Of a DNA stretch of 52,562 bases, positions 5,347-12,123 are shown in pieces. Origin of the DNA: a virus; the IMG/VR virus record IMGVR_UViG_3300046557_000850, positions 1 to 52,562 of that record; one strand, given 5' to 3'. Position numbers and translations under genes: made by a program. The notes beneath the pieces were generated by a model that did not search any database, had not been told where the DNA came from, and saw nothing but the letters and a program-made list of their open reading frames with translations. Every line of letters begins with the position of its first letter. Within the stretch, counting starts at the first letter, position 1.

Positions 5347-5433
5347 GCTCGCCTCAATAGAAGGGTTTATTCGTGTGGCGCATAAGCGCCGTTTATTCGT
5401 TTTACAAATACTCGTTGCGCTTACAACCAGCGG

Positions 5434-9829: not shown

Positions 9830-9947
9830 CTCTCACTCCAAGATTCTGGAAGGTGGTGAGATGCGCCCTAAGAACAGAGGACTTGTGGAAATCCGCTCAA
9901 CTTAGGGCACTTGTCACGCTGGCGCTGTCATCCAGCGCTTGAGATGA

Positions 9948-9977
9948 AGTATAGAAAAACTAGACAATAAAAGTCAA
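9948..9977 (-). promoter_or_regulatory. Leftward early promoter (PL-like)
   Basis: Read on the minus strand, a -35 TTGACT (9977-9972) is followed by 18 bases and a -10 TATACT (9953-9948), each 5 of 6 to consensus. Transcription would start near 9941 and run into the leftward operon. The -10 and -35 are each covered by one 17-bp operator. This mirrors the rightward promoter at 11248. Confidence 0.75.
9949..9965 (+). promoter_or_regulatory. Repressor operator, left site 1
   Basis: GTATAGAAAAACTAGAC is an imperfect palindrome with six-base half-sites separated by five bases. It overlaps the -10 of the leftward promoter. It matches the operator at 11259-11275 (on the other strand) at all half-site positions. 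Confidence 0.75.
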
Positions 9978-9989
9978 GAAAAACGAGAC
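9973..9989 (+). promoter_or_regulatory. Repressor operator, left site 2
   Basis: GTCAAGAAAAACGAGAC has the same 6-5-6 layout, 24 bases from left site 1, and overlaps the -35 of the leftward promoter. Its closest relative is the right site at 11236-11252. Confidence 0.7.
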
Positions 9990-10067
9990 TCGTGCATACG
10001 ATTTTTTTGCGAACATCCGGCTAGGCCTGCTTAGCGCCTATACCAAAACTGACCGTTGGGGGAAGGG

Positions 10068-10310
10068 ATGCTCGATTCTTGGGTGTTTCTGCTGCTCTTG
10101 CTTGTCGTTGGCGTGGCGATCCTGGTCGCTATTGCCCGATGGATTCGCGCTGTGGCGCTGTGGTACTGGCGCGTGGATGAGGGGATTGATCTGCTTCAGG
10201 AGATCCGCGACGAGCTGCGCGAACTTAATAGACGCGCTGATCGCGGTGATGGCGGGGATGTGCTTGAATTCCCGCGCCGAGCGACGCGGGATCGAATTGA
10301 GCCTAGGTGA
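10068..10310 (+). CDS. Small membrane protein with a cytoplasmic coiled coil
   Basis: 80 residues. A strong N-terminal transmembrane segment (SWVFLLLLLVVGVAILVAIA) is followed by an amphipathic helix (IDLLQEIRDELRELNRRAD) and a basic tail. The ATG at 10068 has an excellent GGGGGAAGGG site. It lies rightward between PL and the repressor, where lambdoid phages often keep exclusion genes (rex-like position). Superinfection exclusion or a membrane regulator is a guess from position and topology. Confidence 0.65.
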   Translation: MLDSWVFLLLLLVVGVAILVAIARWIRAVALWYWRVDEGIDLLQEIRDELRELNRRADRGDGGDVLEFPRRATRDRIEPR

Positions 10311-10326
10311 GGCCAAAGCCCCCACC

Positions 10327-11202
10327 CTAGTCTGGGCGCCACATTGACTGCTTTGCGATGCCAGCGACGTAGTGAATCTTGTCGATCTCGTCTTCGTGAA
10401 GCGTGATTTTGCCGTGGGCCTCGTTAATGGAGAGCAGGGTATAGCGGCCGGCAGATTTGTACGCCAGCTCTTTCACCATCACACGTCCATCTTTCGACTT
10501 CACCATGACTTCTTCGCCCGGCTGGATGGGGTGGTTTGGTTCGATGATTACGAACTCGCCGTGCTTGATACGTGGACGCATGGAGTCCCCCGAGCATTCG
10601 ATCGCGTAGGCATCCGGATCGGATGTCGGCCAGTCGATGTAACCATCCCCGTGTCCCACAGGGTATTCGACGTCGGCCCAATACCCGTTGTCGCCAAGTT
10701 GCGCCATTCCTACCACCGCTAGTCGCTTCCGCTTCCCGAGGCCTTTGGGGCGGAATTCATCGTTGTACTGGATAGCGACCTTTTTTTGACCCACACGGGC
10801 CAGCACCCAGGCGCTGTTGTAGCCAAAAACGGTCTGGAGCGTCACCGCGTCTTCGACGCTAATAGCGGAGCCTTTGAGCCAAGCTTCCACGGTCTCCGGT
10901 GAAATCTTGGCCTTGTCAGCAAAGGCGCCGCTGTCCATGCCTGTTTCCGTCAGCATTTCCTGCACACGCGTTGCGACGTCTTTACTGTCGAATGGGGTGG
11001 CGCTGGAAGTGCTCGGCTGAGAATCGGGCATCGGGCACTTAGTGACAACCGAAATCTCTTGAACCTGAGCATAGCTCGGCTCGTGCCTGCCGTTTTCCCA
11101 AGCAGACACGTTTCCTTTGGTCACACCGAGCTTTTCGCCGAGCTGCTCTTGTGTTAGGTCGGCTTTCTTGCGGGCAGACCGGATCCAGTTTCTCATTTCC
11201 AT
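10327..11202 (-). CDS. CI-like S24 phage repressor with two helix-turn-helix domains
   Basis: From the ATG at 11202 the protein has 291 residues. Residues 3-45 form an XRE helix-turn-helix (LTQEQLGEKLGVTKGNVSAW), and 80-132 look like a second XRE-type domain (SGAFADKAKISPETVEAWLK). The C-terminal half is an S24 peptidase: GDSM with Ser207 and a Lys near 244 in RVMVKELAY, as in LexA and lambda CI, implying RecA-stimulated self-cleavage. The frame is open up to 11316, but that part covers the operators, so the ATG at 11202 (or 11196) is the sensible start. Binding to the five 17-bp operators is inferred. Confidence 0.92.
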   Translation of the reverse strand: MEMRNWIRSARKKADLTQEQLGEKLGVTKGNVSAWENGRHEPSYAQVQEISVVTKCPMPDSQPSTSSATPFDSKDVATRVQEMLTETGMDSGAFADKAKISPETVEAWLKGSAISVEDAVTLQTVFGYNSAWVLARVGQKKVAIQYNDEFRPKGLGKRKRLAVVGMAQLGDNGYWADVEYPVGHGDGYIDWPTSDPDAYAIECSGDSMRPRIKHGEFVIIEPNHPIQPGEEVMVKSKDGRVMVKELAYKSAGRYTLLSINEAHGKITLHEDEIDKIHYVAGIAKQSMWRPD

Positions 11203-11211
11203 GGCGGCAGG

Positions 11212-11228
11212 GTATAGGAAATCTAAAC
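11212..11228 (+). promoter_or_regulatory. Repressor operator, right site 3
   Basis: GTATAGGAAATCTAAAC has the 6-5-6 layout. It lies 10 bases upstream of the repressor start codon. On the minus strand its CTATAC provides a -10-like TATACC, so this site overlaps the putative repressor maintenance promoter, as OR3 does in lambda. Confidence 0.65.
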
Positions 11229-11235
11229 GGTCTTG

Positions 11236-11252
11236 GTCTCGTTTTTCTTTAC
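11236..11252 (+). promoter_or_regulatory. Repressor operator, right site 2
   Basis: GTCTCGTTTTTCTTTAC is the reverse complement of GTAAAGAAAAACGAGAC. It lies 24 bases from right site 3 and overlaps the -35 of the rightward promoter. Confidence 0.7.
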
Positions 11253-11276
11253 TTTCAGGTCTAGTAAATCTATACT
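11248..11276 (+). promoter_or_regulatory. Rightward early promoter (PR-like)
   Basis: A -35 TTTACT (11248-11253), 17 bases, and a -10 TATACT (11271-11276). Transcription would begin near 11283 and the first gene starts at 11310. Operators 1 and 2 cover the -10 and -35, so repressor binding would block it. Confidence 0.75.
11259..11275 (+). promoter_or_regulatory. Repressor operator, right site 1
   Basis: GTCTAGTAAATCTATAC is the reverse complement of GTATAGATTTACTAGAC. It differs from left site 1 only in the three central bases of the spacer. It overlaps the -10 of the rightward promoter. Confidence 0.75.
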
Positions 11277-11309
11277 TGTCTTGAAGATCACTCATGACCT
11301 GACTCCCAA

Positions 11310-11624
11310 ATGGCAAAACACCCCATCGCGATCGCTGCAGAGCTTGTTGGCAGCTTCAAAAAGCTGGCTGACATCCTCGGCGTGACCAAGGGTGCTGTGC
11401 ACCAGTGGATGGGTATGGATCGCCAAGTCCCGATCGAACACTGTACGCCGATCGAACAGGCGACCAACCGTCAGGTAACGCGCCAGATGTTGCGGCCTGA
11501 TGACTGGCTTTCGATCTGGCCGGAACTGGCCGAATCCGACAGCGGCAAGGCCGCCTCGACGGATCGCGCGGCAGCTACTGATGATACACAGCCGCCCGCC
11601 GGCCAGCGGAGCAGGAAAAAATAG
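11310..11624 (+). CDS. Cro/YdaS-like DNA-binding protein
   Basis: 104 residues. Residues 12-65 read LVGSFKKLADILGVTKGAVH followed by QWMGMDRQVPIEHC, the pattern of the YdaS family, small helix-turn-helix proteins that act as Cro analogues in many prophages. The C-terminal 35 residues are polar and probably disordered. It is the first gene after the rightward promoter and divergent from the repressor, exactly the cro position. It would compete for the 17-bp operators. The ribosome site is weak. Confidence 0.85.
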   Translation: MAKHPIAIAAELVGSFKKLADILGVTKGAVHQWMGMDRQVPIEHCTPIEQATNRQVTRQMLRPDDWLSIWPELAESDSGKAASTDRAAATDDTQPPAGQRSRKK

Positions 11625-11739: not shown

Positions 11740-12123
11740 ATGCAGACGCAACAAACGCCGCACAAGGCCGCTGCACATAGCCTTAGGCCGGAGCGTGACG
11801 CGCCGGCGCCGCGCTTTTTGCCTGATGAAGAGATCGCTGGCTGCGCGTCTTTTCGCGATGCCGTTTGGCTTGCCTGGGAAAACCGGGCGTGTCGAGGCAT
11901 GACGAAAAGAACGCTGGCGGAGTTGTGTGGCCTGTATGCGCCGCACGTCACCAACTTCGTGAACCCCCAGGCGTTTGATTCGAAGAGGAAGAAGCGGGCG
12001 GATTTGCCGGCAGAGAAGGTCGACGAGTTCGAGCGTGTAGTAGGCAATCGGGCGGTAAGCCAGTGGTTGGCAGACAGGACCGAATTGACCATTTTGGAAA
12101 GGATGATCGCCAACAAGAGGTGA
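11740..12123 (+). CDS. CII/YmfL-like phage regulator
   Basis: 127 residues. After a polar N-terminus, residues 37-75 form a helix-turn-helix (MTKRTLAELCGLYAPHVTNF), and the C-terminal FERVVGNRAVSQWLAD resembles the CGN..PLQWLA signature of the YmfL/CII group. It is the second gene of the rightward operon, the place of cII. The start follows a good GAGGTAAC site. It probably governs the lysis-lysogeny choice; its target is unknown. Confidence 0.7.
   Translation: MQTQQTPHKAAAHSLRPERDAPAPRFLPDEEIAGCASFRDAVWLAWENRACRGMTKRTLAELCGLYAPHVTNFVNPQAFDSKRKKRADLPAEKVDEFERVVGNRAVSQWLADRTELTILERMIANKR

Follow-up and report, generated by a model that had tools for sequence, protein, structure and literature searches.

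A putative lambda-type switch with five 17-bp operator sites that accompany the first HTH of a temperate-phage repressor

Genes and promoters of the immunity region

The window, by which we mean the whole 52,562-nucleotide stretch of DNA analysed here (IMG/VR record IMGVR_UViG_3300046557_000850), derives from a Paraburkholderia-type temperate phage. Its immunity region contains the following features.

9948-9977, minus strand (leftward): promoter PL, TTGACT-18-TATACT, with 10 of 12 consensus matches
9949-9965, minus strand in the parts list, matched as plus: OL1, GTATAGAAAAACTAGAC, covering the PL -10; kept in relatives
9973-9989, minus strand in the parts list, matched as plus: OL2, GTCAAGAAAAACGAGAC, covering the PL -35
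10068-10310, plus strand: 80-aa ORF, convergent with cI, in the variable slot between cI and PL
10327-11202, minus strand: cI-like repressor, 291 aa, with HTH1 (residues 7-58), a second HTH (about 73-135) and an S24 peptidase-type domain (about 160-288)
11211-11240, minus strand: predicted PRM, with the -35 GAGACC (11240-11235) at OR2, a spacer of 18 and the -10 TATACC (11216-11211) in OR3
11212-11228, minus strand in the parts list, matched as plus: OR3, GTATAGGAAATCTAAAC, centred 18 bp 5' of the cI ATG
11236-11252, minus strand: OR2, GTAAAGAAAAACGAGAC, covering the PR -35 and centred 42 bp 5' of the cI ATG
11248-11276, plus strand (rightward): promoter PR, TTTACT-17-TATACT
11259-11275, minus strand: OR1, GTATAGATTTACTAGAC, covering the PR -10 and centred 65 bp 5' of the cI ATG
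11310-11624, plus strand: cro-like gene, 104 aa, YdaS/P22_Cro family, with solved Cro relatives in the PDB
11740-12123, plus strand: 127-aa ORF in the cII position

Residues 74-286 of the repressor can be aligned to CI proteins of the 933W type at about 35%, and the protein as a whole looks like an ordinary CI with an additional HTH at its front. By sequence, the closest solved phage-repressor relative of HTH1 is P22 C2 (Foldseek match 3jxb, rmsd 1.4); unlike the present protein, P22 C2 has no second HTH, and its operator sequence differs from the 17-bp sites described here. An AlphaFold model of the repressor (mean pLDDT 66.6), confident for both HTHs and part of the S24 domain, was used for fold order only. 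At the expected S24 self-cleavage site (residues 169-170), 37 residues before the catalytic-type Ser, the repressor carries Leu-Gly (QLGDNG) in place of lambda's Ala-Gly, and both residues are invariant in all aligned relatives. Self-cleavage may be altered, in which case induction may differ from the standard RecA route.

The divergent cro-like gene scored above the curated Pfam cutoffs for both YdaS_toxin (E=5.8e-21; 74.5 bits, cutoff 30) and P22_Cro (2.3e-7; 30.9 bits, cutoff 30.2), placing its product in the YdaS/P22_Cro family. The 80-aa ORF probably has one transmembrane helix and returned no match in a Pfam search; the 127-aa ORF had no Pfam, PHROG or NCBIfam family match. The slot that the 80-aa ORF occupies (9990-10326) resembles the rex slot of lambda, and the same slot in relatives (L005-L014) holds varying cargo, namely lipoprotein-like ORFs, an HTH protein, a DUF6941 protein or a DUF1828 protein.

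Each of the promoters PL and PR has a site on its -10 and another on its -35, and either one is nearly an inverted copy of the other. Over 20 nt, 9970-9989 is 95% complementary to 11236-11255, and over 19 nt, 9947-9965 is 84% complementary to 11259-11277, in agreement with the mirrored left and right pairs described in the initial annotation. The -10 of the predicted PRM ends just ahead of the cI ATG, where a Shine-Dalgarno sequence is absent; the cI message is for that reason probably leaderless. The candidate PRM -35 is weak (3/6), as expected of an activated promoter. Its sequence and the sequences before the cI ATG in relatives, together with the analogy to lambda cI and to paaR2 of CP-933P (PMC8630535), would fit a CI-activated, leaderless promoter.

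Five 17-bp sites in the window

A sequence scan of the window found all five sites exactly where the initial annotation had placed them, starting at 9949, 9973, 11212, 11236 and 11259. Start-to-start spacing was 24 on the left and 24 and 23 on the right, as claimed, with two sites lying on the -10 and -35 of the leftward promoter and three forming a right operator between cI and cro. The annotation had also described the five as the same palindrome, which was borne out in part: the outer GT..AC and the inner AG/CT bases are common to all five, but not all 12 arm bases are, and the sites at 9973 and 11236 are imperfect palindromes.

A loose pattern allowing up to three mismatches matched 26 times in the window, against 12.0 +/- 3.8 in shuffled sequence, and none of 100 shuffles reached 26. 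In leave-one-out scans every site was among the top five in 52.5 kb, the best non-site being far lower. For a test not trained on the window's own sites, and hence a fairer one, we built an independent matrix from 90 OR sites beside 30 distant repressors (HTH1 less than 72% identical), with the window excluded. With this matrix the same five sites ranked 1 to 5 in the window, with scores of 20.0, 20.0, 19.3, 13.3 and 13.2; the next-best position scored 10.1 and the maximum in the reversed window was 11.3. The two weak matches (13.2-13.3 versus 20) are OR2 and OL2, which may need cooperativity or may be Cro-biased. No third OL site resembling lambda OL3 was found near PL, and no further operator elsewhere in the phage scored above 10.7.

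Since the promoter hexamers themselves lie inside OL1, OR1 and the -35 sites, the five sites might be a chance AT-rich similarity (TTGAC, TATAC) around two promoters. We consider this extremely unlikely: OR3 lies outside PR as well as PL, every site is conserved in its two halves whereas each promoter uses only one, and the rank test and the relatives go far beyond chance.

Conservation of the sites and their association with HTH1

Among close viral homologues of the repressor (65-92% identity), all ten carry the three OR sites and the OL pair, spaced 23/24 at OR and 24 at OL, with a weak OR2 in one of them (L013). A homologous phage with the same repressor but without the sites was sought in this set, and none was found. 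The gap between cI and OL, which holds differing cargo, is anywhere between about 0.1 and 1.6 kb. Three Paraburkholderia genomes likewise carry these sites. Conversely, a scan of viral contigs for nothing but the OL pair gave eight contigs, and seven of these had been identified before as encoding a homologous repressor. The eighth, L025, has all five sites beside a 111-aa HTH1 relative that matches residues 1-84 of the repressor only.

A search with HTH1 alone yielded 47 distinct loci with a recognisable OR set, which, being picked by palindrome score, are not an unbiased sample; their repressors range from 111 to 397 aa. Relative to the cI start, 42 of the OR2 centres lie at -42, four at -43 and one at -41, and an OL pair scoring above 20 is present in 42 of the 47 (null maximum 16.3). 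Among repressors with just one domain in common, the lambda OR geometry is kept to one or two bases. OR3 is poor in several relatives with short repressors. HTH1 relatives below about 50% identity often have no set at the expected positions (L131, L142, L157, L159-L171), indicating that the code does not span the whole superfamily. A family-wide genome search around the P. tuberum genome found an HTH1 relative in 13 of 398 genomes; the site counts given here are exclusive of these 13.

Conservation at OR could in principle reflect coding rather than operator function, the region encoding an N-terminal extension of the repressor. The cI frame is indeed open through OR1 in 44 of the 47 loci, frequently with an in-frame ATG upstream, and within the tandem-HTH group this ATG has a GGAG-type sequence just ahead of it. 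However, the same words recur at OL, outside that frame and at fixed spacing, and spacer codons freely change amino acids. The three closed frames belong to loci with sites shifted by one base, so that frame openness largely follows site phasing. We therefore rejected the coding explanation of OR as very unlikely.

The opposite arrangement to L025 is found in Paraburkholderia phage IPK, whose repressor keeps the second HTH and the S24 domain (49% identity from residue 59) behind a different N-terminus and has lost HTH1. IPK has none of the window's sites; its OR and OL show palindromes of the ATTACCGTACGGTAAT type instead. This operator set of its own lies at L021:3636-3691 and 5375-5416. L025, with HTH1 alone and the sites kept, and IPK, with HTH1 and the sites both lost, form a reciprocal natural swap. 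In computation, the sites are linked to HTH1, taken as residues 1-60, and not to the second HTH or the S24 domain. The two HTHs also differ in conservation: in twelve tandem repressors, residues 28-36 of HTH1 never change, whereas the second recognition helix has only V105, W108 and L109 as invariant positions, and this variability suggests that the second HTH reads no specific sequence. HTH1 (residues about 1-58) seemingly behaves as an exchangeable operator-reading module in front of differing C-terminal parts.

Within the family, operator sequence covaries with residue 29, at the start of the HTH1 recognition helix. Base 2 of the half-site is T in 226 cases and G in 12 beside the 40 distinct Lys29 repressors, and G in 35 cases and T in five beside the seven Arg29 repressors, so that Lys29 goes with GT and Arg29 with NG. 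Although two Lys29 repressors (L105 and L106) share about 76% identity with the main Arg29 group, their sites are of the GT type. No more than about two changes are required on the tree, which limits phylogenetic independence and makes the pairing of residue 29 with base 2 a strong lead, not proof. A 2005 study by Hall, Lefevre and Cordes, cited in PMC4997575, reportedly correlated Cro helices with operator half-sites. A broader reading is that HTH1 is a portable immunity module, travelling with its OR and OL operators and joined to C-terminal parts of unrelated kinds, be it a second HTH, S24 or no such part, with the -42 geometry kept and Lys29/Arg29 setting base 2 (T/G) as a readable code; we would put the odds of this a little above even.

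The same comparisons bear on whether the sites might be mainly operators of the Cro (YdaS-like) protein, with the CI-like protein binding elsewhere or through its second HTH. A YdaS/P22_Cro-type gene lies divergently next to OR in the listed relatives, and YdaS of CP-933P binds the equivalent region (PMC8630535). The sites nevertheless follow HTH1 of the repressor, and are lacking in IPK, which has the second HTH and S24; the cro-position gene of IPK also differs, so IPK by itself does not separate CI from Cro. Base 2 covaries with CI residue 29, whereas Cro recognition helices are not split alike, and the exposed positions of the second HTH helix vary among close homologues. We regard a primarily Cro-directed operator set as unlikely.

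A proposed switch and its relation to known systems

We favour the reading that the five sites are operators of a lambda-type genetic switch, recognised by HTH1 of the repressor, and assign it a probability of roughly nine in ten. The sites, their geometry, their overlap with promoters and their conservation are computational observations, whereas CI and Cro binding, PRM activation and the affinities of the sites are inferred. The repressor very probably binds the five sites to keep the phage dormant. In the proposed mechanism, CI-like dimers on OR1 and OR2 would silence rightward transcription from PR (cro onward), and dimers on OL1 and OL2 would silence leftward transcription from PL. CI on OR2, 42 bp 5' of the cI start, would contact RNA polymerase at PRM and sustain its own synthesis, a role that fits the -42 position although activation itself is predicted; occupancy of OR3 would close PRM. 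The YdaS/Cro-like protein would compete for the same sites, leading to lysis, and by analogy CI and Cro would show opposite preferences at these shared operators. Operator recognition would fall to the first HTH, and looping between OL and OR is plausible.

The layout closely resembles that of lambda. Measured from the A of the cI ATG (11202), the OR centres lie at 18, 42 and 65, compared with 19, 42 and 66 for the annotated operators of lambda (NC_001416), each within 1 bp. As in lambda, three spaced 17-bp sites lie between divergent cI and cro over PR and PRM, with OR1 and OR2 on PR; OL, on the leftward promoter, lies downstream of cI beyond a cargo slot; the repressor is CI-like, with HTH and S24 domains; and no Shine-Dalgarno sequence precedes cI. 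Unlike lambda, OL has two sites rather than three, Cro is of the YdaS/P22_Cro type, and the repressor has an extra HTH. The initial annotation had proposed that lambda OL/OR logic is reproduced with a different DNA code. The positions of the OR centres, the promoter overlap and the conservation in close and many distant relatives support that logic; the layout stands, but the two-site OL is not that of lambda, and the 3+2 arrangement is that of N15 and phiKO2 (PMC4997575). The difference in code was upheld, as the family matrix scored at best 7.0 in the lambda region.

Related switches share parts of this organisation. The immB region of N15/phiKO2 likewise counts exactly five operators, with three at OR and two at OL, but its sites are 16 bp with a T-A-N10-T-A motif, its repressor is without S24 catalytic residues, and Cro of phiKO2 binds OR3 only (PMC4997575). 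In prophage CP-933P of E. coli O157:H7, the footprints of PaaR2 and YdaS fall on operators that overlap, at PRM and PR; the two proteins also act on PL, and the paaR2 gene is leaderless (PMC8630535). Its half-site consensus starts GTTTAG, as does one OR3 half-site here; compared by description, it differs in that its repeats are 18 bp long with GTTTAGTAA half-sites, its OR comprises four inverted repeats and its OL three operators, and its repressor is the first gene of a toxin-antitoxin operon (PMC8630535). In the Rac prophage, racR is divergent from ydaS with three intergenic repeats, which are of the GCCTAA/TTAGGC type (PMC5700373). With a best family-matrix score of -4.6, the Rac intergenic region was rejected as a known example of the code.

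Six exact 17-mers had no match in the open-access literature, which was the scope of the search, subscription papers lying outside it. As far as the open-access literature shows, the operator code is unreported, while the layout is already known from lambda and N15/phiKO2. Rather than being confined to this phage, the code recurs in dozens of others. The immunity specificity predicted in the initial annotation accordingly holds for an immunity family and not for this phage uniquely, the code being common to a broad HTH family. These results provide a concrete operator code for a temperate-phage family, found in Paraburkholderia genomes and many viral contigs, for which we found no described switch, and they make immunity groups readable from sequence. 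The Lys29/GT and Arg29/NG repressors and the reciprocal domain swaps constitute a natural repressor-operator series for the study of how specificity evolves.

Two further observations concern translation starts. An in-frame ATG lies 93 nt 5' of the cI ATG (11295-11203, minus strand; likewise in L005-L014), and in most tandem-HTH relatives a GGAG-type sequence stands ahead of it. Translation from there on a PRE-type transcript could yield a longer repressor, although the coding evidence is weak. The cro ATG lies 7-8 nt past OR1 in many relatives (L066, L087, L105-L108, L114, L117, L133, L134), where cro may also be leaderless.
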